64,000 nucleotides of DNA from Bacteroidota bacterium (GTDB lineage Bacteria > Bacteroidota > Bacteroidia > Chitinophagales > Chitinophagaceae): assembly GCA_016868475.1 (NCBI GenBank), contig VGGU01000004.1:1-64000 (forward strand), read 5' to 3'. Positions 5,115 through 57,262 of this stretch are shown here, one piece after another. How positions within the stretch are numbered: position 1 is the stretch's first letter; every line of letters starts with the position of its first letter. The notes below the pieces were generated by a model, which was not told where the DNA came from, did no database searches, and saw only the letters and a program-made list of their open reading frames with translations. Both the position numbers and the translations under genes were made by a program.

Positions 5115-6124
5115 TAGCGAATTAATTTTGCAAAGTAATTTACTGTTCTAACCAATTGGCTTACATAACTCATCTCATTATCATACCAACTTACCGTCTT
5201 AACCAACTGATGATCTCCAACGGTTATAACTTTGGTTTGTGTGGCATCAAAGAGTGAGCCATAGCTAATACCGATGATGTCAGTACTAACAATTTCGTCC
5301 TCTGTATAACCAAAGGATTCATTAGCGGCCGCTTTCATAGCAGCATTTACTTCCTCAACGGTAACTTTTTTGTTCAATATTGAAATTAGTTCTGTGAGTG
5401 AACCGGTAATAGTTGGAACACGCTGAGCACCTCCATCCAATTTACCTTTCAATTGAGGCAATACCAATCCAATTGCTTTTGCAGCACCTGTACTGTTTGG
5501 AACGATGTTTCCGGCAGCAGCCCTAGCTCTGCGCAAGTCACTTTTGGGATGAGGAGCATCCAATGTGTTTTGGTCGTTTGTATAGGCATGAATGGTTGTC
5601 ATATGACCCACTGTAATCCCATATTCCTGATCCAGCACTTTTGCCATGGGTGCTAAGCAGTTGGTGGTACAAGAGGCACCGGAGATTACCGTTTCCGTTC
5701 CATCCAGTATCTGATGATTGACATTGAATACCACTGTCTTTAAGTCCCCAGTGGCAGGAGCAGAGATCACCACTCTTTTTGCGCCTGCACGTAAATGCGC
5801 TTCTGCTTTATCCTTATCAGTAAAAAACCCTGTGCACTCCAATACCACATCCACATCATGTGCAGCCCATGGAATTTGCGCTGGATCTTTTTGAGCGTAT
5901 ATCTTCAAAATATCATCGTTAACGATGATTGAATCTTCATTAGCCTTTACTTCGGCATCGAAACGGCCTTGTGCGCTGTCGTATTTCAATAAATGAGCTA
6001 AAACCTTTGGACTGGTTAAGTCATTAATAGCAACTACATCAATGCCCTCCATGTTGTAAATTTTCCGGTATACCAACCTTCCAATTCTTCCAAAACCATT
6101 GATTGCTACTTTAACAGATGCCAT
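5114..6124 (-). CDS. gap: Glyceraldehyde-3-phosphate dehydrogenase, type I
   Basis: Converts glyceraldehyde-3-phosphate to 1,3-bisphosphoglycerate. The Rossmann motif INGFGRIGR opens the protein, and INDLTS carries the aspartate that favours NAD over NADP. The catalytic cysteine is in SGASCTTNC (about residue 152), with the histidine in [10 protein letters not shown]. The length of 336 residues is standard. It is the first gene of the gap-pgk operon and is divergent from tRNA-Glu, sharing an intergenic region of fewer than 90 bases. Confidence 0.97.
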
Positions 6125-7090: not shown

Positions 7091-8404
7091 TTACTTTTTT
7101 CTGAAAAACAAGCGAACAGGAACGCCAGTGAAATTAAAATGTGAGCGCAACTGATTTTCCAAATAATTTTTGTAAGGAGTTTTGATATCATCTGGAAAGT
7201 TGCAGAAAAATGCAAAGCTGGGAACAACCGTTGGTAGCTGCGTGATAAACTTGATCTTTATAGGATATCCCCTCACCACCGGTGGGTGATAGGCCTCGAT
7301 TGCTTTAAGCATTTTTTCATTCAGCTCAGATGTAGGGATCCTTTGCTGTCGGCTGGCATAAACTTGAAGCGCCGCCTCAATGGCTTTGTGAATTCGAATT
7401 TTTTCTAAAGCAGACACAAATAAAATAGGAACATCGTTAAAGGGAGCCAATCTTTTTCTAAGTTCTTTTTCGGTTTGAATAGCAGTGTTTGTTTCCTTAG
7501 CAATTAAATCCCACTTATTGACTAATAGCACAATTCCCTTTCCTTTCTTAACAGCCAAACTATAAATATTCAGGTCTTGCGCAGTTAAGCCCTTTTCTGC
7601 ATCCAATAGCAACAAACAAACATCCGCTTCATCCATGGCTTTGATTGCACGGATCACCGAATAAAATTCCAGGTCCTCATGGACTTTTGCCTTACGGCGA
7701 ATGCCTGCCGTGTCAATTAATACAAATTCCTTTTGAAATAAATTGTAATGCGTATGGATTGTATCACGTGTAGTACCTGCGATATTACTTACAATGGTTC
7801 GCTCCTGTCCTATCAATGCATTTAACAGGGAGGATTTTCCTGTATTAGGTTGACCGATAATTGCAATCTTAGGGAGCTTATTTTCTTCGACTTCCTCGGT
7901 GGAAAGCTCAGCCGGCATCAATGCAGTAATGGCGTCCAATAATTCCCCTGTGCCACTTCCACTTGCTGCAGCAATAAAAAATACCTGCTCCAGTCCAAGG
8001 GAGTAAAACTCAGCCGCTTCCAATAATCGCTCGTTATTATCCACTTTGTTCACCACAACAAATACAGGCTTTGTGCTTTTTCGTAGTAGCCCAACCATTG
8101 AGTCATCTAGGTCAGTACGGCCTGTTGCTGCATCAACCATAAATAAAATCACATTAGCTTCTTCTAAGGCTACCAGCACCTGCTTGGCAATTTCTCGCTC
8201 AAAAATATCTTCACTTCCGTGCACAAACCCTCCCGTATCAATTACATTAAAATTTTTACCATTCCAATCAGCTACCCCGTATTGCCGATCTCTGGTAACT
8301 CCTGAGATGTCGTCCACAATAGCCTTACGTTGTTCTAACAAACGATTAAACAAGGTGCTTTTTCCAACATTAGGCCTGCCTACTATTGCAACTGTAAATG
8401 ACAT
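7091..8404 (-). CDS. der: Ribosome biogenesis GTPase Der (EngA)
   Basis: Two GTPase domains in tandem followed by a KH-like domain, the hallmark of Der, which acts in 50S subunit maturation. The first P-loop is GRPNVGKS (residues 9-16) with DTGG and NKVD; the second is GQPNTGKS (near 185) with DTAG and NKWD. The C-terminus contains the RNA-binding part with HFNFTGVPVRL. The length of 437 residues is normal. It lies one base downstream of era on the same strand, so two ribosome-assembly GTPases are co-transcribed. Confidence 0.97.
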   Translation of the reverse strand: MSFTVAIVGRPNVGKSTLFNRLLEQRKAIVDDISGVTRDRQYGVADWNGKNFNVIDTGGFVHGSEDIFEREIAKQVLVALEEANVILFMVDAATGRTDLDDSMVGLLRKSTKPVFVVVNKVDNNERLLEAAEFYSLGLEQVFFIAAASGSGTGELLDAITALMPAELSTEEVEENKLPKIAIIGQPNTGKSSLLNALIGQERTIVSNIAGTTRDTIHTHYNLFQKEFVLIDTAGIRRKAKVHEDLEFYSVIRAIKAMDEADVCLLLLDAEKGLTAQDLNIYSLAVKKGKGIVLLVNKWDLIAKETNTAIQTEKELRKRLAPFNDVPILFVSALEKIRIHKAIEAALQVYASRQQRIPTSELNEKMLKAIEAYHPPVVRGYPIKIKFITQLPTVVPSFAFFCNFPDDIKTPYKNYLENQLRSHFNFTGVPVRLFFRKK

Positions 8405-8405
8405 A

Positions 8406-9269
8406 TTAATATCCGTATTCGTTCAAAAATAATTCATTGTCTCGCCATCTAGGTCTCACTTTTACAAAAAGCTCCAAATAAACTTTTTCTTGCAAAAATG
8501 CTTCGATGTCCTTTCGCGCTTCGGACCCGATTTTTTTTATGGTAGCACCTTGCTGACCCAGAATAATTCCTTTTTGAGTTTCTCTATTTACAATGATATC
8601 AGCAAGAATGCGAACCAACCCTGGCTTTTCTTTAAACTCCCTGACCATCACGGCCGTGTGATAGGGAATCTCTTCCTCCATGGTATCAAAAATCTTACCT
8701 CGGATAATTTCTCCTACAAAAAAACGCGTCTGCAAATCGCTGATTTGATCCGAATCGAAAAAAGGATTGCCTTCTGGTAAAAATGGCAATAGTTCTTGAA
8801 GCAAAAAGGATGTTTTTTCATTTTTTGCCGAAATCGCCACCACTTTTTTACAATAAGGTTTCTTGGAAAAATACAGCATGGCCTCTTGCAATTTGTCTTT
8901 GCCAACTAAGTCCTTTTTATTTAAAACAACAATAGCAGGCACTTTTAATCTTAATGAACTAAACAGTTGGTCACTGCGCTTCCAATCTTGCTTGAGATCC
9001 ACTAAAAGAATAGCCAGGTCTCCATCCTCTAATGCACTTCGCACAGCTCCCATCATACGCTCATGCAGCTTATACTGAGGCTCAATAATACCCGGCGTAT
9101 CAGAAATCACAATCTGGTAATCAGCAGTACTTAGTATTCCTTTAATGCGGTGTCTGGTGGTTTGCACCTTTGAAGAGACAATAGCTAGCTTTTCTCCCAT
9201 CAATGCATTGAGGAGGGTGCTTTTCCCGGCATTTGGGAACCCTAATATGTTTACAAATCCAACACGCAT
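8406..9269 (-). CDS. era: GTPase Era
   Basis: Binds the 3' end of 16S rRNA through a C-terminal KH domain and couples 30S maturation to GTP hydrolysis. The P-loop GFPNAGKS (residues 10-17), DTPG and NKKD are all present, and the KH motif GIILGQQGATIKKIG is near residue 240. The length of 287 residues is typical. It is first in the era-der pair. The upstream neighbour on the same strand is tRNA-fMet with its own terminator, so era needs a separate promoter, which I could not identify with confidence. Confidence 0.97.
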   Translation of the reverse strand: MRVGFVNILGFPNAGKSTLLNALMGEKLAIVSSKVQTTRHRIKGILSTADYQIVISDTPGIIEPQYKLHERMMGAVRSALEDGDLAILLVDLKQDWKRSDQLFSSLRLKVPAIVVLNKKDLVGKDKLQEAMLYFSKKPYCKKVVAISAKNEKTSFLLQELLPFLPEGNPFFDSDQISDLQTRFFVGEIIRGKIFDTMEEEIPYHTAVMVREFKEKPGLVRILADIIVNRETQKGIILGQQGATIKKIGSEARKDIEAFLQEKVYLELFVKVRPRWRDNELFLNEYGY

Positions 9270-9285
9270 GTGAGTCCTATTCCAA

Positions 9286-9310
9286 TTAAAAAGTCCGCCT
9301 GAGGCGGACT
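9286..9310 (-). terminator. Intrinsic terminator of tRNA-fMet
   Basis: Perfect eight-pair stem AGTCCGCC/GGCGGACT with a three-base loop, followed on the minus strand by TTTTTAA. It lies three bases beyond the encoded CCA of the tRNA. Confidence 0.88.
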
Positions 9311-9312
9311 CT

Positions 9313-9387
<75 letters not shown>

Positions 9388-9397
9388 ATCTGGAGTG

Positions 9398-9429
9398 CAA
9401 ATATAGAATTTTTTAGCCCCCCTTCCAAA
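9398..9429 (-). promoter_or_regulatory. Promoter of tRNA-fMet
   Basis: On the minus strand TTTG (9429-9426), 20 bases, then TATATTTG (9405-9398), a full match to the Bacteroidota promoter, ending ten bases before the tRNA. Confidence 0.75.
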
Positions 9430-9502
9430 CAAAGTCTCCAATCATCTATTTTATGTAGGTTTGTGCAGTACAGCACATTTGTTTATTGTGTTGCTCCATG
9501 TT

Positions 9503-9591
9503 TTCGGGGTGTTTCTGATTGAATAATCAGTTGCTGAGATCAAACCCGTTGAACCTGGTCAGGGTAATGCCTGCGAAGGGAAGAAACCGAA
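9503..9591 (+). ncRNA. TPP riboswitch (THI element)
   Basis: The conserved core CTGAGATCAAACC, then GAACCTGGTCAGGGTAATGC and CTGCGAAGGGA are the two sensor arms that bind thiamine pyrophosphate. The closing stem P1 is TTCGG (9503-9507) with CCGAA (9587-9591). It ends about 46 bases before the ATG of the TonB receptor at 9638 and should lower its expression when TPP is plentiful. I see no strong terminator between the aptamer and the gene, so control of translation start is more likely (inference). A possible -7 box TAGGTTTG for this unit is at 9456-9463. The remaining bases 9430-9502 show nothing else. Confidence 0.95.
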
Positions 9592-9637
9592 GCTATTCTT
9601 CTGCGCTACATTCCCTCTACATATTAAATTGTAAACT

Positions 9638-11812
9638 ATGAAGAGGTTGTTCATTGCCATCGGATTGTTACTCACCCAAGTTTCATTTGCACAGAGGCTG
9701 TACAAAATAGATAGTATTCCAAGCGACAGTTTTTATACACTAGCTCCAGTTGCTGTCCGTGCCGTGCGTGTCGGGGAAAACACTCCATTTACCAGAACTA
9801 ACTTATCTAAGAAGGAAATTCAATTGGCCAATCAGGGAGCCGATCTTCCTTTTATACTAAATAATACACCCTCCATAGTCATTAACTCAGATGCCGGAAA
9901 TGGAATCGGATATACGGGAATGCGAATTAGGGGCACTGACGCTACACGTATTAACGTAACCTTAAATGGAGTTCCATTCAATGATGCGGAAAGTCAGGGT
10001 ACTTTTTTTGTAAACTTGCCAGACTTTAGCTCTTCTGCCAGTAGTATACAGATTCAACGGGGTGTGGGGACTTCATCCAATGGACCAGGAGCTTTTGGAG
10101 CCAGCGTTAATATCAGTACGGCAGAGACCGAAAAAGAAAAGTATTTAGAATTTAATAACAGCATTGGCTCATTTGGAAGCCGTAAGCACACTTTACAATT
10201 TGGGACTGGTCAATTAAAGGGGTTTAATTTTTCAGGTCGCCTCTCCTCTATCATGAGCGATGGGTTCATTGACAGAGCAAGTAGTAACCTGCGTTCATTT
10301 TATTTTGGAGCAGGTTACAGTAAGGACAGTAATTCGGCATTACGACTATATGTTTTTTCCGGAAAAGAAAAAACGTATCAAGCCTGGTACGGAGTGAGTG
10401 AACGTGATCTATTAAGTGGAAACAGAACTATTAATTATGCAGGAACTGAAGCATCTGGTTCACCATATAAAAACGAAACAGATAATTACCATCAAACTCA
10501 TTATCAGTTTCACTGGGAAAAAAATAGTAAAAAACAATATCGATTCAGCACTGCGTTTTTTCTAACCAGAGGAAAGGGTTATTACGAACAGTATAAAGCC
10601 AAGGAACGATTTACCAAATATGGTTTGACTCCGCCTACGCTGAATGGAGTAGTTGTAGAGCAGTCGGATTTTATCCGACAACTCTGGTTAGACAACTATT
10701 TCTATGGCAATAACAGCACGTTGCAACTACAAAAGAAAAACACGGAGTGGACAATAGGAACCACGATTGCTCAATATCAAGGTAAGCATTATGGAAAATT
10801 GATATGGGCTTCTATTAGTAGACCAAATTTTCCGCATACTTGGTATAATAACAATGCCACTAAAACTGAGAGCTCCTTCTATATAAAACAGCAAACCAAA
10901 GTGGGTAATGCTGTTTTTTTATACTATGATTTACAAATAAGAACAGTAAATTATCGTATACAGGGTTTTAGAAACAATCCTTCGCTTTTTGTGAACAACC
11001 ACTATACTTTCTTTAACCCAAAAATTGGCGTCACTTATCGCTCAGCAGGATGGAGGGCATATGCTTCTATAAGCAGCGGTGCGAAAGAACCAAGCCGAGA
11101 CGATTTTGAGGCAGGAACTGCCACGCAACCATTACCTGAGAAGTTATACGATCTGGAACTAGGATTGGAAAGAAAAACAACAAGACTAAATACGGCCATC
11201 ACCTGCTATGCAATGCAATACAAGAACCAGTTGATTTTAACTGGTAAAATCAATGACGTGGGTGCATACACCCGAACCAATGTACCAAACAGTCAAAGAC
11301 TTGGTGTAGAACTTGAGGCCTCCTATATAATAAAAAAATGGATAACCACAGGTGGCAATCTTTCGTTCAGTCAAAATAGAGTAAAGAACCTGGAGGAATA
11401 CATTGATGATTATGACAATGGCGGGCAAATAAAAAAGGTTTACAACCGCTCTACTCTCGCCTTTTCTCCTGCATGGATAGCGAATCAGTATATAACCATT
11501 ACGCTGGTAAAAAAAGTAGAAGTATCACTATTTAGACGATACGTAAGCAGACAGTACCTGGACAACACAGCAAATATTCAACGCTCCTTAGACCCATTTT
11601 TTGTGCAAGACTTACGCATTAACTATTCTTTACAAACAAAAGGAAAGTACAGATTGATGTTCATTGCACAGGTCAATAATTTAACCAATACCAAGTACGA
11701 ACCTAATGGTTATACATTCAGTTATTTTTATGGAGGAACAGTTCAAACCGAGAACTACTATTTCCCCATGGCAGGCAGAAACTACCTGTTAACCATAAAC
11801 ATTAAAAGATAA
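9638..11812 (+). CDS. TonB-dependent outer membrane receptor, predicted thiamine importer
   Basis: 724 residues: signal peptide (MKRLFIAIGLLLTQVSFAQ), then a plug domain (about 45-155, with NNTPSIVINSDAGNGIGYTG, RIRGTD and LNGVPFNDAESQG), then a beta-barrel ending in YLLTINIKR. There is no N-terminal carboxypeptidase-like domain, unlike SusC. The substrate is inferred from the TPP riboswitch just upstream; TPP-controlled outer membrane thiamine receptors are known in Bacteroides (OMthi). No inner-membrane thiamine transporter (PnuT) or thiamine synthesis gene is adjacent, so the partner must be elsewhere. It could take up thiamine, TPP or a precursor; the sequence does not say which. Confidence 0.88.
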   Translation: MKRLFIAIGLLLTQVSFAQRLYKIDSIPSDSFYTLAPVAVRAVRVGENTPFTRTNLSKKEIQLANQGADLPFILNNTPSIVINSDAGNGIGYTGMRIRGTDATRINVTLNGVPFNDAESQGTFFVNLPDFSSSASSIQIQRGVGTSSNGPGAFGASVNISTAETEKEKYLEFNNSIGSFGSRKHTLQFGTGQLKGFNFSGRLSSIMSDGFIDRASSNLRSFYFGAGYSKDSNSALRLYVFSGKEKTYQAWYGVSERDLLSGNRTINYAGTEASGSPYKNETDNYHQTHYQFHWEKNSKKQYRFSTAFFLTRGKGYYEQYKAKERFTKYGLTPPTLNGVVVEQSDFIRQLWLDNYFYGNNSTLQLQKKNTEWTIGTTIAQYQGKHYGKLIWASISRPNFPHTWYNNNATKTESSFYIKQQTKVGNAVFLYYDLQIRTVNYRIQGFRNNPSLFVNNHYTFFNPKIGVTYRSAGWRAYASISSGAKEPSRDDFEAGTATQPLPEKLYDLELGLERKTTRLNTAITCYAMQYKNQLILTGKINDVGAYTRTNVPNSQRLGVELEASYIIKKWITTGGNLSFSQNRVKNLEEYIDDYDNGGQIKKVYNRSTLAFSPAWIANQYITITLVKKVEVSLFRRYVSRQYLDNTANIQRSLDPFFVQDLRINYSLQTKGKYRLMFIAQVNNLTNTKYEPNGYTFSYFYGGTVQTENYYFPMAGRNYLLTINIKR

Positions 11813-16622: not shown

Positions 16623-18002
16623 CTATTTGTGATAAACTAAATATTCCCAAGCCTGCATTTCAAATGGGGTGCCGGGCATGAACTCATTAGCTGCTCCTGA
16701 AAACGTGTTTTGATACACTCCATTGATCAGTGGGTCTATCAGGTCAAAATGTAAATCGTTTTTATCGGACAGGTTCAAAATGACCAACACTTCTTTTTCT
16801 CCTTGTTTTCGTAGGTAGGCGATCACCTGGTCAGGAGCAGTAGTTTTTATACGGTAAGTTTTACAAGTAGGGTCTCCAGCTCTGAGGGCTGGATGCTTTT
16901 TTTTCAATTGGATCAATGTAGAATAGAACAATTTCAAATATTCAGCATCAGGCCCTTTTTCGAATAAGTCCTTTTCAAAAAAAAGTACAGGTTTTCTATT
17001 GCCTATCTCTTGCCCCGAATAAACCAAGGGAACACCATTCCAGGTTAGACTAAACACGGCTAGCGCAGGAGCCATTTTACCATACTTTTGATACTCGGTG
17101 CCATTCCAACTATTTTCATCGTGATTGGAAGTAAACCAAACGTTAAGTGTAGGGTTTTCAACTTTATCGTAATCATTTAATACAGCATATAGGGAATCAA
17201 TGGACCATTGTTGATGATAATAATCTTTTGCCCGGTGCATCCAAGTCCAAGTATAACTTGCATCAAATGCCTGACCATACTCCGGCCTCTCCAATTGATC
17301 GTACTCCCCAAACCAAAACAATGGTTTTAGTTGATCTAATTCTGCACGGGCTTCTTTCCAAAATTCTACTTCAACCCAAAAAGCCAAATCACAACGGAAT
17401 CCATCAATATCAAAATTGGTGATCCAAAATTTCATTGCATCGATCATAGCGCGGCGTAGCGCTGGGTTAGAAAAATCCAACTCAATGATATCGTCCATGC
17501 CAGAGGCAATTTTAAAGGTACCCGTTGCCGTATCCTTCAAGTAATACTCCGGGAATTGTTTAGTCCATTGATGATCCCAACCAGTATGATTGGCCACCCA
17601 GTCAATGATAATCTTAAATCCCATTTCATGCGCTTTTGTTACCAGCTGTTTGAAATCTGCTTCCGTGCCAAACTCCGGATTGATACTAACATAATCCGAA
17701 CAGGCGTAATAACTTCCCAACCCGCCTTTTCTGTTTTGTTTAGCAATGGGTGTAAGCGGCATAAACCACAATGTTTCAATTCCTAATTCTTTTAAACGAG
17801 GAAGTTCTTGCATAAAAGCAAGAATGGTGCCGCTAGCAGTATATTGTCTGAGATTGACCTCATAAATTGTTGTTTGCTTTACCCAATCCGGGGTTAGAAA
17901 TGGTCCGTTCATACTGGTTGATTTTTCTGATACATCGTCTTGACTTGGCATAAGCTTGCAAGACATCAAGAAGAGTGAAAACGCAAACAAGCGAAAATTC
18001 AT
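16623..18002 (-). CDS. GH13 alpha-amylase family lipoprotein
   Basis: 459 residues starting with a lipoprotein signal (FSLFLMSC, Cys15), so probably anchored in the envelope. The TIM barrel of family GH13 is clear: DWVANH, DGFRCDLAFW (nucleophile Asp), FWFGEYDQ (acid/base Glu) and TSNHDENSW (third acid). It should cleave or rearrange alpha-glucans such as starch or maltodextrin; exact specificity is unclear. No SusCD pair is adjacent, but the alpha-glucan phosphorylase remnant is 1.2 kb away. An ATG eight codons upstream (18026) would spoil the signal peptide. Confidence 0.9.
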   Translation of the reverse strand: MNFRLFAFSLFLMSCKLMPSQDDVSEKSTSMNGPFLTPDWVKQTTIYEVNLRQYTASGTILAFMQELPRLKELGIETLWFMPLTPIAKQNRKGGLGSYYACSDYVSINPEFGTEADFKQLVTKAHEMGFKIIIDWVANHTGWDHQWTKQFPEYYLKDTATGTFKIASGMDDIIELDFSNPALRRAMIDAMKFWITNFDIDGFRCDLAFWVEVEFWKEARAELDQLKPLFWFGEYDQLERPEYGQAFDASYTWTWMHRAKDYYHQQWSIDSLYAVLNDYDKVENPTLNVWFTSNHDENSWNGTEYQKYGKMAPALAVFSLTWNGVPLVYSGQEIGNRKPVLFFEKDLFEKGPDAEYLKLFYSTLIQLKKKHPALRAGDPTCKTYRIKTTAPDQVIAYLRKQGEKEVLVILNLSDKNDLHFDLIDPLINGVYQNTFSGAANEFMPGTPFEMQAWEYLVYHK

Positions 18003-18039
18003 GGCGTTATTTTTAGCAATATACAAAAAAGAGGGGCCC

Positions 18040-18047
18040 TATCTTTG
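18040..18047 (+). promoter_or_regulatory. -7 box for ispH, nearly leaderless
   Basis: TATCTTTG ends only four bases before the chosen ispH ATG (18052). In Bacteroidota transcription begins a few bases after this box, so the mRNA would start at or next to the start codon. I do not see a convincing TTG at -33. Confidence 0.5.
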
Positions 18048-18051
18048 CGAC

Positions 18052-19266
18052 ATGAAAAGCTTTGACGTGCCGATCATTTATCGTAGTCCACTGATTAGTG
18101 CGATCAAGAAGAAACGAAAAGAGCAGGATAGGATGAAAAAGGACTTCACCCCTACACTGCTCGACTTTGGGCCACTTCAAATCTCAGTTGCCAGACATTT
18201 TGGATTTTGTTACGGTGTGGAAAATGCTATTGAAATTGCCTTCCGAACCCTTGATCAACATCCCAACAAACGCATCTTTTTACTGAGTGAAATGATCCAC
18301 AATCCACAGGTAAATGCTGATCTGCAAGCAAGGGGGATTTGCTTTTTACAAGACACATCAGGACGCACACTCATTCCATTTGAAGAACTGCATAAAGAGG
18401 ATATTGTGCTTATCCCCGCTTTTGGCACCACACTAGAAATTGAAATGCAACTACGCAACCGAGGAATTACTACTGAAATATACAATACCACCTGCCCTTT
18501 TGTTGAGAAAGTCTGGAATCGCAGCGAAGCCATTGCTAAGAAAAATTTCACCGTAATTATTCATGGTAAACCAACTCATGAAGAAACCAGAGCTACTTTT
18601 TCACATGCTGCCGTACATGGACCAGCAATGGTTATTAAAGACATGGAGGAAGCAAAACTCCTTGCCGAATTTATTCGAGGAAATAGACCCATGGATGATT
18701 TTTTCAATCATTTCAGCAGTCAGTGCTCAGCAAACTTTGATCCAATCGAGCACCTGAAACGCATCGGCGTAGTAAATCAAACCACTATGCTAGCCAGCGA
18801 CACACAGGCCATTGCTGATTTTTTGAAAAAAACAATTTTAGAAAAAGAAAACTGTGAGGACCTAGTTGCTGATACCCGAGATACTCTCTGTTATGCTACA
18901 TTAGACAATCAAACGGCTGTTCGAGGATTATTATCAACTCCGGCCGATCTGGCTATTGTGGTAGGTGGATATAACTCTTCCAACACTTCTCACTTAGTTG
19001 AACTCTGTGAATTACAACTTCCCACCTATTACATCGAAAATGCACAGAAAATCAGTACTGAAAATTCAATAAGCCATTACGACATACACGCCCAGGTTGA
19101 AAGAGTAACTGTAAATTTTTTACCGAGTAAAAGACCTCTTCAAATCCTGTTAACTAGTGGGGCTTCCTGTCCAGATGCATTGGTGGAAGGTGTAATTGAA
19201 CGTTTATTAACCTTGGTGCCTGACGCAACCACACTTGATTCCCTTCTGAAATCCTATCAAGCGTAA
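18052..19266 (+). CDS. ispH: 4-hydroxy-3-methylbut-2-enyl diphosphate reductase (IspH/LytB)
   Basis: Last enzyme of the MEP isoprenoid pathway, a [4Fe-4S] protein giving IPP and DMAPP. The three cluster cysteines are in HFGFCYGVENA (Cys53), NTTCPFVEKVW (Cys148) and TSGASCPDALVEGVI (Cys373); the proton-relay text VNQTTM is at about 241. At 404 residues it is the long form, with an insert near 205-235 compared with the roughly 315-residue E. coli enzyme. The frame is open to 17956, but that would start inside the divergent amylase gene. Its 3' end overlaps the convergent phosphorylase by ten bases. Confidence 0.94.
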   Translation: MKSFDVPIIYRSPLISAIKKKRKEQDRMKKDFTPTLLDFGPLQISVARHFGFCYGVENAIEIAFRTLDQHPNKRIFLLSEMIHNPQVNADLQARGICFLQDTSGRTLIPFEELHKEDIVLIPAFGTTLEIEMQLRNRGITTEIYNTTCPFVEKVWNRSEAIAKKNFTVIIHGKPTHEETRATFSHAAVHGPAMVIKDMEEAKLLAEFIRGNRPMDDFFNHFSSQCSANFDPIEHLKRIGVVNQTTMLASDTQAIADFLKKTILEKENCEDLVADTRDTLCYATLDNQTAVRGLLSTPADLAIVVGGYNSSNTSHLVELCELQLPTYYIENAQKISTENSISHYDIHAQVERVTVNFLPSKRPLQILLTSGASCPDALVEGVIERLLTLVPDATTLDSLLKSYQA

Positions 19267-20912
19267 AGCAGTTTATAGTACTCCTCTGCCATCCGATTGC
19301 TATCGAATGCAAAGCGGACATCTTGCATGCCATTTTTCATAACCTGGCGCCAGGTGTTGTAATCGTCGTAATAGAGAGGAAGAATTTCATTTTCTAAAAT
19401 ATCATAAAGTTTGTTCAAATCATATTCGTCTTGCTCGTGAACTGCCATGTTTTCATAATCAGCCTTAGGCACAACAAATCCGTTATGTCCATGATTGATA
19501 AATTCTGGAATCCACCCGTCATCAGTTGAAAAATTTACAGCTCCGTTCATGGCTGCCGTCATCCCACTGGTACCAGATGCTTCACGGGGAACACGAGGAT
19601 TGTTAAGCCAACAATCTGCAGCCTGTTTTAAGCGTTTAGACAAGGTCAGTTCGTACCCAATTAAAACAGCCATGTTCTTATGCAATTTGCTTAAATGCAC
19701 CAGCTGATTGAACTCGCTGATAGCTGGATGATCCATTGGATAAGGCTTGCCTGCCCAAATGAGCTGAACAGGGTACCGAGTGTTTGACATCAATTTGGCA
19801 AATCGTTCTTCATGGGTAGTAATTAAATCTGCCCGCTTGTATCCTGCAAATCGTCGTGCCCAAACTATGGTAAAGACGGAGGGATTAAACAGCTTTCCTG
19901 TTTGATCAGCCACCAACTCAAAAGCCCTTTTCTTCAAATATTGCTTTCTATCATCAATCCCATAATTATCCCCCGCTTCCATGAACCGATATAATTGCTT
20001 ATCCGCCCAGTATCGCCAATTCTGAGCGTTAGTAATTGAGATGATTGGACTGATTTGATCTTGTTTTTCCCAAATTTTTCTTGACACTTCTCCGTGCAAT
20101 TTTGAAACTCCATTAGAGAGGCGCGCAAACCGAAGTGCTGCAAAGGAATGATTGAACATATCTGCATCATCTCCTATCAATGCTTTTACTTCTTCTACAG
20201 TTAATCCGCAGAAATAGCTCATGCGATGGCAGAGAAAAATATCATGTTTTTCGTTACCAGCTTCCTCGGGAGTATGGGTGGTGAATACCACTCGTTTCCT
20301 TACTTCTTCCAGATCTTGATTAAATTTTCTGTATAAATAGAATGCAGCAGAAATAGCATGAGCTTCGTTAAAATGATATCGTTCTGGCTGGATACCTAAT
20401 AGGTCTATTAATTTAGCTCCCCCTACCCCTAATAATATAAACTAAGCCACTTTAGTGGCCACATTGGCATCGTATAGACGATGTGTAATTGTTTGAGAAA
20501 CATAATCATTCTCTGGCAAATCCGTAGTTAAGAGAAATAATGGAGCTGATTTGAAAGTTGAAGGGTTTAGATACAATGCTTTGACCCAAACTGGATGCTC
20601 ATGAATGATTACTTGAAATTTAATACCCGTGTCTTCTAAAAAGCTATATTCTTTTTCATGCCAGGTAACATTTAAGGTTTGGTCCTGATTGCGAGCTTGA
20701 TCATAGTATCCAAATTTCCAAAGTATACCTGTGCCCACCATGTTTTGCTGCAATTCGTAGGCGCTTCTTAAGTGAGAACCTGCCAAATAACCCAGACCGC
20801 CACTATATATTTTCAATGACTGATGCAAAGCAAACTCCATTGAAAAATAAGCAACACTTTTACTGAATTGATCCTGAATGGTAAAGGGAACTTTATAAGG
20901 AGAAAAACTCAT
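19257..20912 (-). pseudogene. Alpha-glucan (glycogen) phosphorylase, GT35 short form, interrupted by one in-frame TAG
   Basis: One continuous frame of 551 codons is split by a single amber codon at 20444-20442 (codon 157). The text before it (YDANVATKVA) and after it (FILLGVGGAKLIDLLG) joins without any gap, and the intervening stretch to 20291 also matches the family (YHFNEAHAISAAFYLYRKF). Relatives that I recall have glutamine there (ATKIAQF), so CAG to TAG is the simplest cause. The rest is undamaged: SVAYFSMEFALH, VFTTHTPEEAGNE, WARRFAGYKRADL, EASGTSGMTAAMNG. The usual PLP-binding lysine (GTGNMK in other phosphorylases) is threonine here (codon 19559-19557). It could be a young pseudogene, a sequencing error or a recoded gene. 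Confidence 0.85.
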
Positions 20913-20941
20913 AATGCGTATTTTTTACACGAAGCCGCAAT

Positions 20942-21904
20942 TTAGCTCTTCTTTACAATACGCGGAGATTTTTTACGAGTAAACGAGCCATCAAATAAAC
21001 ACCCCGCATCACGTTGTGACCCACAGCTGCGTTCCTGCAAACGAACGCCCTGGCTGGTGAAAATAAATTGTAGTATACAAGGATCTCCCGCCTGTCTGTA
21101 TTCTGCTTTGAACGGGGACTTCCAAAATGCTTCGCCTTTCAACTCTCCGCTACAGTCCCCATTTACTTTTTCAAAATGAATAAAAAAAGTGATTCGATCT
21201 GGTTTTCGCCCGTCGCGTATTGACACTAAATTCATTTTCCCCTGCGTGTAATCAGCGGAATATTTACGCATAGTGGCTAAGGTATCTATCGGGTTGATCA
21301 GTTCCTTTACCCTATCCTCTAAGGCGTCGGTCATGATTAACGTGAAGAATTTGGCCGCTTCATTATAAACATAAACAGCTTTGCCTTCACTGATTGTGGC
21401 ATCTGCATTTTTTCTGAGTTGAAGCAGCGTAAATAAAAATTTTCTATCCACTAGCAATGATTGCTGAACGTCTTTATTGGGCAAAGGATAAAAGAATGTT
21501 GTTGCCGACTGGAAAACTGATTTTTTATCAAAGACCAGCACCAAAACCATGCGTTTACTTCGGCTTGTATACCTGATTAAAGTATACGTTTCTGCATCTG
21601 GCACTTCAATGCTACCAAGTGCATGAAATTGTGGTTTTTCTTTTTTATTGATCAGCGACCCAAGTATAGAATCAGGTACAATGTTTTTCAAAACAGGAAC
21701 ACTAATAGACAAGGAATCCGAAAAACGTTGAGTCAATATCGTATCCGAAATAGTTAGTGGTTTAGTAAGCGGGGTAAAAAAAGTAATAAAATCAGCGATA
21801 GCTACGGGTTCTTCTCCAGAAAGCAGGATTTTTTTCTTCTCGCTGCAGCCAGCAACTGCAAAGAGAAATAAAAGGCCCAATAGTTGAGTTCTCCAGCGAA
21901 TCAT
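20942..21904 (-). CDS. Uncharacterised lipoprotein
   Basis: 320 residues with a clear lipoprotein signal (LLGLLFLFAVAGC, Cys about 19) followed by lysines. I do not recognise the family. The mature part alternates beta-like segments, and the C-terminal 60 residues hold four cysteines (DCSGEL, DPCILQ, RSCGSQRDAGCLF) that may form disulphides, ending in a basic tail. The frame opens with a TTG at 21913, but the ATG at 21904 gives the better signal. It is 29 bases upstream of the phosphorylase on the same strand, so the two may be co-transcribed; no functional link is evident. Confidence 0.7.
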   Translation of the reverse strand: MIRWRTQLLGLLFLFAVAGCSEKKKILLSGEEPVAIADFITFFTPLTKPLTISDTILTQRFSDSLSISVPVLKNIVPDSILGSLINKKEKPQFHALGSIEVPDAETYTLIRYTSRSKRMVLVLVFDKKSVFQSATTFFYPLPNKDVQQSLLVDRKFLFTLLQLRKNADATISEGKAVYVYNEAAKFFTLIMTDALEDRVKELINPIDTLATMRKYSADYTQGKMNLVSIRDGRKPDRITFFIHFEKVNGDCSGELKGEAFWKSPFKAEYRQAGDPCILQFIFTSQGVRLQERSCGSQRDAGCLFDGSFTRKKSPRIVKKS

Positions 21905-21995
21905 TGAACTCAATTTACCCCTTTTTTAGTAATAGAGATCTTTTTACTCTTGGAGCAATTTTGTAATTTTGCATATCTCCGCCTTAGCTGATAAT

Positions 21996-22820
21996 ATGGA
22001 TCAATTACAGCAATTTTTATCTTCGATTGGCCCCATTTGGGCGGCATTGTTAGCTACTACATTCACCTGGTTTGTTACTGCATTGGGCGCTTCATTGGTC
22101 TTCTTTTTCAAAACAATGAGCCGCTCTTTACTTGATCCTATGTTAGGCTTTACTGGTGGTGTAATGGTGGCGGCTAGTTTCTGGTCTTTATTAAACCCTG
22201 CCATTGAGATGTCGGCAACCATGTACCCTGGCTTAATATGGATGCCGGCTGCAGTTGGATTTTTAGCTGGAGCCCTTTTTATTTTTATACTGGATAAAGT
22301 AACGCCGCATTTGCACATCAATTTTGGTTTGGAAGAAACAGAAGGAGTTAGAACAAAATTGCATAAAACCACACTGCTAATTTTGGCCATAACCCTGCAT
22401 AATATTCCAGAGGGATTAGCGGTGGGCGTATTGTTTGGCGCAGCTTCGCTGGGAATGGAAAATGCTTCGCTGGCTGGCGCTATCACCCTGGCAATCGGAA
22501 TCGGTATTCAAAATTTTCCCGAGGGAATTGCCGTTTCAATGCCTCTGCGTCGTAGTGGTGTTAGTCGGTTTAAGAGTTTTTGGTATGGCCAACTTTCTGC
22601 CATAGTAGAACCTGTTGCTGGTGTTATCGGGGCAATGGCTGTAATCTATGTTCAACCCATTTTGCCATTTGCGCTTGCTTTTGCTGCAGGAGCCATGATT
22701 TTTGTGGTAGTGGAGGAAGTAATTCCGGAAACTCAACGGGAACGGTATACTGACCAATCTGTACTGGCCTTTATCTTTGGGTTTCTGGTTATGATGATCT
22801 TGGATGTAGCATTGGGCTAA
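21996..22820 (+). CDS. ZIP family metal transporter (ZupT/GufA-like)
   Basis: Inner-membrane importer of zinc or other divalent metals, with about eight hydrophobic helices. The two signature motifs in helices 4 and 5 are HNIPEGLAVG and QNFPEGIAV; the second has Asn where many relatives have His, as in GufA-type members. A short loop HLHINFG between helices 3 and 4 may bind metal. I start at the ATG at 21996 rather than 21969, because a -7 box TAATTTTG occupies 21964-21971. Length about 274 residues. Confidence 0.92.
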   Translation: MDQLQQFLSSIGPIWAALLATTFTWFVTALGASLVFFFKTMSRSLLDPMLGFTGGVMVAASFWSLLNPAIEMSATMYPGLIWMPAAVGFLAGALFIFILDKVTPHLHINFGLEETEGVRTKLHKTTLLILAITLHNIPEGLAVGVLFGAASLGMENASLAGAITLAIGIGIQNFPEGIAVSMPLRRSGVSRFKSFWYGQLSAIVEPVAGVIGAMAVIYVQPILPFALAFAAGAMIFVVVEEVIPETQRERYTDQSVLAFIFGFLVMMILDVALG

Positions 22821-56146: not shown

Positions 56147-57193
56147 TCAGTTTTTATAGAGAGCAGTTTCTTTTTTGATGGGTCCATTGAGGCTGTCTTG
56201 CCGAATATATCCTCTGTACATCCCCTCAGTGCAAAATGGCATTACCATATTGCCGTCCTTGTCCACAGCAATTAGTCCACCATCACCTCCCAAAGCAGGA
56301 AGCTTTTGCATCACCAGTTGATTGGCTGCCTCTTCTAGCGTTTTTCCACCATATTCCATTTGGTCGCAAATTGATTTGGCCATTACTAATCGTATAAAAT
56401 ACTCTCCCCATCCTGTACAACTAACAGCTGCCGTGGTATTATTAGCGTAAGTGCCAGCCCCTATTATAGGAGCATCTCCTATTCGTCCCCATTTTTTATT
56501 GGTCATTCCTCCGGTACTGGTAGCTGCTGCAAGATTTCCATGCATATCCAAAGCCACCGCCCCCACCGTTCCATATTTTTCTTTTTTACGTTCCAGCGTT
56601 TCCATCAATGCAACCGGTTGCTGATTCTTTTTGGTAGACTCCAATGAATCTCGTTGTCGAATAATTTCTAGCGAATGCCATCGCTGAGGGGTATAAAAAT
56701 AGGAGGGATCCACCATCTCTATACCCATTTCCTTGGCAAATTGCTCTGCCCCTATACCACTTAGCATTACATGCTCACTTTTTTCCATCACCGCACGCGC
56801 AGCTGAAATGGGATTGCGTATTGTGCTTACCCCTGCTACCGCTCCTGCAGACAGATTTTGCCCATTCATGATAGCGGCATCTAATTCATTTTTTCCTTGA
56901 TTGGTGAATACGGCCCCCTTACCTGCATTAAAAAGTGGATTGTCTTCCAACACCCGAACAGCCGCTTCCACTGCATCTATAGCTTTACCGCCTGTTTGTA
57001 ATATTGCCTGCCCAGCCAGCAACGCTTGCTCCAATGATTCTTGGTATCGTTTTTCTTGTTCGGGCGTGATTTTGCTTTTTAGTATAGTACCCGCTCCGCC
57101 ATGAATTACCAACACATATCGATCCTGCGCTGCAACTGCAGATGGTTTCAAATTACCAATGAAAAAAAATAGGAATACTAAGAAGGCTCGCAT
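56147..57193 (-). CDS. Exported isoaspartyl peptidase/L-asparaginase, Ntn type
   Basis: 348 residues with a signal peptide (AFLVFLFFFIGNLKPSAVAAQ). A member of the plant-type asparaginase family that cuts itself to free a nucleophilic threonine, here Thr of GTVGAVALD (about residue 200). LVIHGGAGTI, AVEAAVRVLEDNPLFNAGKGAVFTNQG and TSTGGMTNKKWGRIGDAPIIGAGTYAN are typical. It acts on isoaspartyl dipeptides and asparagine, probably in the periplasm. Start chosen at the ATG at 57193; an upstream start (57229) would overlap the divergent tamB region. Confidence 0.93.
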   Translation of the reverse strand: MRAFLVFLFFFIGNLKPSAVAAQDRYVLVIHGGAGTILKSKITPEQEKRYQESLEQALLAGQAILQTGGKAIDAVEAAVRVLEDNPLFNAGKGAVFTNQGKNELDAAIMNGQNLSAGAVAGVSTIRNPISAARAVMEKSEHVMLSGIGAEQFAKEMGIEMVDPSYFYTPQRWHSLEIIRQRDSLESTKKNQQPVALMETLERKKEKYGTVGAVALDMHGNLAAATSTGGMTNKKWGRIGDAPIIGAGTYANNTTAAVSCTGWGEYFIRLVMAKSICDQMEYGGKTLEEAANQLVMQKLPALGGDGGLIAVDKDGNMVMPFCTEGMYRGYIRQDSLNGPIKKETALYKN

Positions 57194-57262
57194 GACTTTG
57201 TTTTGAACAATATTAACCATTTGTCCCAAGCTCTTTTCCTAATTTTACACACAAGATTTTTT

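Follow-up and report, generated by a model that had tools for sequence, protein, structure and literature searches.

Loss of the glycogen genes is a known feature of bacteria with small proteomes. In Wang et al. 2019 (PMC6686919), the 510 species that lack the glgC, glgA and glgB enzymes have a mean of 1120 proteins, and the 3137 species that have these enzymes a mean of 3966. The alpha-glucan phosphorylases are described in PMC11046441 as enzymes that use covalently linked pyridoxal phosphate (PLP). The locus analyzed here belongs to a draft genome (G000; 1,739,071 bases in 107 contigs, 96.68% complete) that resembles the small-proteome cases of PMC6686919: it measures 1.74 Mb, has lost glgC, glgA and glgB, and would then have lost a glucan-linked gene. 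Unlike known pseudogenes left after pathway loss, this gene has been caught with one altered codon and hardly any decay besides, and it belongs to a family whose activity is putative only. We put at roughly 0.8 the probability that the lesion is real and arose very recently, as a nonsense mutation in a gene made dispensable by the lineage's loss of glycogen synthesis.

An in-frame amber codon in a GT35-like gene

The interrupted frame lies on the minus strand of the window, the whole 64-kb (64,000 nucleotide) stretch of DNA that was analyzed, and spans 551 codons (19257..20912) from an ATG at 20912 to a terminal TGA at 19257. The only stop before that TGA is a TAG at codon 157 (20444..20442; feature 20442..20444), which is present in the assembly sequence and divides the frame into a 5' fragment of 156 codons that runs from the ATG to the amber codon (20445..20912) and a 3' fragment of 394 codons plus the terminal TGA (19257..20441), both on the minus strand. 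The gene, a single copy in G000, is a short TIGR02094-type, GT35-like gene that the family model names 'alpha-glucan family phosphorylase'. Read through the stop, the frame scores 432.4 bits against NCBIfam TIGR02094 (curated cut-off 191.7) and 50.7 against PF00343 (cut-off 27); taken separately, the 5' and 3' fragments score 100.3 and 315.4 bits against TIGR02094.

Comparisons with relatives provide evidence that this is one gene with one lesion. First, the five nearest relatives, at 89–93% identity, have this frame uninterrupted through its 551 residues, so it is not a chance frame. Second, the alignment of the frame with its relatives contains no indel. Third, codon 157 encodes glutamine in all 29 relatives read in detail (CAG in 21, CAA in 8), which are drawn from 41 same-genus relatives searched and with G000 make up 30 loci of one genus. 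A wider, overlapping set has glutamine in 86 and alanine in 6 of the 92 sequences with a letter at this position. Given glutamine at this codon in the relatives, a single lesion in G000 is enough to account for the break. A preliminary description had reported a frame intact on both sides of one TAG, without indel, and had given glutamine (CAG) as the residue at the site in relatives; both points are borne out, with the amendment that CAA is also used. It had also proposed comparison of the locus with sister strains; no relative among the matches listed shares the TAG. The search covered 97 genomes including G000, 65 of which have a match to the gene, and the only stops among the match rows are the TAG of the G000 frame and a TAA in one remnant in the sister genome G003. 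The gene thus combines an inactivating lesion with intact relatives, as a nonsense pseudogene does. The nearest copies in named records come for the most part from Bacteroidetes/Chitinophagaceae metagenome bins, and sample names suggest a freshwater origin for many of them.

A short subfamily without the cofactor lysine

The G000 frame is like the classical TIGR02094/GT35 phosphorylases (e.g. PDB 9l6i, 20yr) in that it scores over the family cut-off, and its EASGTSG and RRFAxYKR motifs align with 9l6i. It differs from them in length and at the cofactor site. Open frames of the short subfamily have roughly 550–640 residues, against about 680–980 in classical Bacteroidota members. In the alignment with PDB chains, codon 452 (Thr; 19557..19559, minus strand), in EASGTSGMTAAMNG, falls where 9l6i has EASGTSGEKAEMNG and where 9wvu, an alpha-1,4 glucan phosphorylase, has EASGTGNMKFAMNG. 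The aligned lysine (K in EASGT...K) is presumably the PLP-binding residue, K680 of the rabbit enzyme. Classical Bacteroidota members have lysine in 30 of 30 cases (the best-scoring 30 of a phylum search), whereas the short subfamily has threonine in 88, serine in 3 and alanine in 1 of 92 sequences; a second count gives 26 threonines and 2 serines among 28 short members, and lysine in two long ones. The G000 gene, with Thr452, therefore lacks the PLP lysine by which an alpha-glucan phosphorylase is recognized. No other PF00343 gene was found in 17 same-genus genomes (E 0.001), apart from an additional short copy each in G032 and G035, likewise without the lysine (alanine and serine, respectively). 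A structure model of the intact orthologue in the syntenic relative G025, built from 42 sequences of which the others are 76–95% identical to that orthologue, has a mean pLDDT of 59.6, too low for a fold search.

Background omega values of 0.013 among near relatives and 0.02–0.03 in a wider set argue that the short GT35-like family is plainly functional, and within the genus it usually goes with glgA/glgB under very strong purifying selection. The label 'phosphorylase' appears doubtful even for intact copies, since phosphorolysis by them is unproven where the PLP lysine is absent. Tentatively, and at a little under even odds, the intact gene may not be a phosphorylase at all and may represent a lysine-less short Bacteroidia subfamily with another role in glycogen metabolism, such as a PLP-independent glucosyltransferase or a regulator. 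A literature search for a GT35 or TIGR02094 subfamily without the PLP lysine found nothing; PMC11046441, in its passages on these enzymes, reserves the term 'PLP-independent' for GH13 disaccharide phosphorylases. If the non-phosphorylase reading is true, the amber codon would have knocked the gene out naturally in a lineage in which its role had come to an end. Glycogen phosphorolysis is likewise unproven in pathway reconstructions of these Bacteroidia where it is based on an alpha-glucan phosphorylase annotation.

Reading of the amber codon

The codons past the stop are conserved, as they would be if the TAG were recoded or read through to give a full-length enzyme, an option that the preliminary description had kept. 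Four other lines of evidence speak against it and leave it very improbable, as does the absence of this stop from every relative among the matches listed, which have glutamine at the site in all copies read in detail. First, ARAGORN, applied to all 35 tRNA loci identified with Rfam RF00005, detects no CTA anticodon, and the tRNA-Gln has TTG; with completeness at 96.68, some 3% of the genome could be absent from the assembly and might hold a suppressor tRNA. Second, release factor RF1 is present (495.1 bits, cut-off 423.25). Third, TAG is an ordinary terminator here: the 54 longest non-overlapping stop-to-stop ORFs of at least 120 aa in the 64-kb window end in TAA (30), TGA (12) or TAG (12), one of the last being the 5' fragment itself, so that 11 others remain. 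Fourth, no stimulating RNA structure is evident near the stop, where the 109 bases tested fold no better than shuffled sequences (z 0.16). Recoding and suppression are rejected on the combined evidence of the tRNA set, RF1, stop usage, relatives and RNA folding.

The two fragments might instead be made separately, with a re-start at a downstream GTG or ATG, and act as a split enzyme. The longest re-start ORF of the 3' fragment begins at a GTG at 20291 and encodes 344 aa, which still cover the C-terminal portion of the family profile. Such a start would lose the 50 residues between the stop and the GTG, a stretch with many columns invariant across 42 relatives; moreover, no relative among the matches listed from the 97-genome search has a stop here, and the genomes G003 and G031 have instead lost large parts of the gene. 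A split enzyme is accordingly hardly credible. The amber codon is most likely explained by ordinary decay of the gene at a very early stage, and not by a special reading of the code.

Constraint on the gene and age of the lesion

In a branch model, the G000 branch has an omega of 0.031 against 0.013 elsewhere (2dlnL about 10). An omega of 1 on this branch is rejected (lnL -7301.8 vs -7276.9), and the omega profile gives a 2dlnL of 3.4 at 0.05. The branch test is not very specific, as the branches of the intact G033 and G016 copies differ too, downwards (2dlnL 7.6 and 5.2). Four neighbouring genes (zip, ispH, the amylase and a lipoprotein-like gene) are also raised on the G000 branch, 2.4–3.0 fold, and icd 1.2 fold. 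On the control branch of G025, zip, ispH and the lipoprotein-like gene are up 2.1–3.2 fold, and the amylase and the interrupted gene are not raised. With rises on both branches, part of the omega increase is common to both lineages. The G000 copy has changed two otherwise invariant residues, the same number as the intact G025 copy, in a count that is fair only for L001–L006; for the more distant rows tested, the wider set contained copies from those very genomes, and their zero counts carry no information. Decay specific to this gene in G000 was thus not found: the omega rise is matched by four of the five neighbours and the residue count equals that of G025. Across 16626-22817 of the window, where omega rises on both branches, selection may be weaker generally in the G000/G025 subclade.

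If the excess omega were neutral time, it would amount by simple arithmetic to at most about 4% of the G000 branch, and about 46% of that branch (0.101 of 0.221) post-dates the split from G003. On these estimates, and with the codons around and beyond the stop still conserved, the amber codon is younger than the G000/G003 split, and the deletion in G003 is a separate event. Either the lesion is very young, or it is an error or a minority allele, and the sequence of the gene alone does not separate a stop of yesterday from an error.

Breakage elsewhere in the genome

An error of sequencing or consensus, or a minority allele that entered the metagenome assembly while most cells keep an intact gene, would account for strong constraint right up to the branch tip, where an omega of 1 is rejected, for the almost complete lack of further damage in the gene, and for its occurrence in a draft genome of 107 contigs. 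Such an origin is nevertheless unlikely in view of the rest of the window and genome, where breakage of this kind is rare. Comparison of the window with the ORFs of the syntenic G025 yields 15 rows of at least 150 bits that contain a stop. Sorted by position, five of these stops are upstream of the first Met, two are in the last 8 residues, seven fall within shadow ORFs overlapping longer genes, and one is in this gene. If the other genes start at their first Met, the amber codon is the sole gene-interior stop among G025 ORFs with window matches of at least 150 bits, and no other window gene in this comparison has one; the frame change at the first residues of the gene at 39305-37662 is by the start codon. 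In the reverse direction, 52 of 53 window frames, the interrupted gene being used in its read-through form, have a full-length, stop-free counterpart in G025, and the remaining one (1975-2796) is 81% covered. When 489,518 bases of G000 were screened for coding potential, by a method that detects stops and is blind to frameshifts, 30 in-frame ORF pairs were flagged; by eye alone, 29 were judged to be boundaries of neighbouring genes and one is the interrupted gene, so that no further mid-gene stop was recognized in these bases.

In the sister genome G003, 50 of the 53 window frames are full length without a stop. The exceptions are the interrupted gene, an asparaginase-like gene (56150-57238) and the frame at 1975-2796, which is 86% covered in G003 and has no stop there. 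Only the first two have gone missing, wholly or for the most part, in the sister. A random error would therefore seldom strike such a gene: it would need to hit by chance one of 2 in 53 frames, and to do so in a genome that also lacks glgA and glgB. The gene at 56150-57238 (minus strand) is of the asparaginase family (PF01112, 407 bits). Both G000 and G025 have it intact, but it is mostly missing from the syntenic region of G003, where the best stretch covers 13% of it.

Loss of the glycogen genes and of the linked gene within the genus

The G025 genome carries, in order, dnaK, a small ORF, argS, glgB, a cyclomaltodextrinase-like GH13 gene, an MFS transporter gene, glgC, glgA, a sugar MFS transporter gene and a ROK-family kinase gene. 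G000 has the same flanking genes at this locus, with the glgA-glgC-MFS-GH13-glgB block deleted (about 7.6 kb). The scar of ~320 bases (contig C17, about 5441-5763, vs G025 C6 7390-15342) retains the glgA ORF over residues 1-53 and the glgB ORF over 583-641, in G025 stop-to-stop numbering. No further glgA or glgB over cut-off was found in G000, and the absence of glgC refers to the block locus. With the glgA/glgC/glgB block deleted, G000 probably has no home-made glycogen left to break down. The preliminary description had expected a dead gene to alter glycogen or maltodextrin breakdown; that expectation needs changing, since the block was already deleted. The corresponding scar in G003 (9269-9863) keeps glgA 1-31 and glgB 464-641, and its end points differ from those in G000, which means that the two deletions are independent or that a single deletion was extended on two occasions. 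A remnant of glgA is also present in G031.

Copies of the GT35-like gene damaged inside contigs are found in three genomes: G000, by the TAG, and G003 and G031, by deletions. The G003 remnant (7998-8164) has only aa 38-60 and 518-551 left; that of G031 (5131-5966) keeps residues 1-31 and 303-550, in different frames, with aa 32-302 deleted. Partial copies in G002, G010 and G035 are ended by contig edges and are not scored as damaged. Seven of the 42 same-genus genomes have no glgA over cut-off (G000, G003, G031, G021, G010, G030 and G011), and damage is confined to them: 3/7 without glgA vs 0/35 with it (Fisher 0.003), two of the 35, G002 and G035, having the gene partly seen at contig ends. 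G003 and G031, like G000, are without both glgA and glgB over cut-off. Since G010 and G030 have glgB, the lack of glgA in them probably reflects draft quality. Counting glgA or glgB, damaged copies occur in 3/5 genomes without and 0/37 with (Fisher 0.0009), glgB having been checked in 20 of the 42. The Fisher values are too small because they ignore kinship: G000 and G003 are sisters with full support, and their glg losses may be one event.

The reality of the lesion is favoured because the gene is also lost in the sister and in one more congener, and because the pathway is absent from the genome. Among the options of the preliminary description, a very young pseudogene has the best support, as the gene carries one lesion and hardly any decay past it and has been lost through different lesions in two congeners; that description's alternative of an error or minority allele stays in consideration at the low likelihood given above. 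Under a real and recent nonsense mutation, the glycogen pathway would have been lost first, which would have removed selection on the gene; the amber codon would then have risen by drift to the population consensus, and the 156- and 394-residue pieces would be non-working. The pseudogene itself is ordinary, yet it offers a clean snapshot of decay after pathway loss. Within one genus, the pathway has been lost in two or three lineages and the linked gene is seen at three stages: one stop codon, a frame-changing deletion and a near-complete deletion.

Pathway loss alone does not doom the gene. G021, which is 100% complete in 9 contigs and without glgA and glgB over cut-off, has an intact copy (C3:473065-474714), and G011 (76% complete), also without glgA and glgB, has one as well. 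The intact G021 copy appears to be under mildly relaxed constraint, with a branch omega of 0.042 vs 0.024 (2dlnL 5.5) and no rise on two control branches that bear the pathway. The C-terminal part that remains in G031 has an omega of 0.074 vs 0.022 (2dlnL 6.4).
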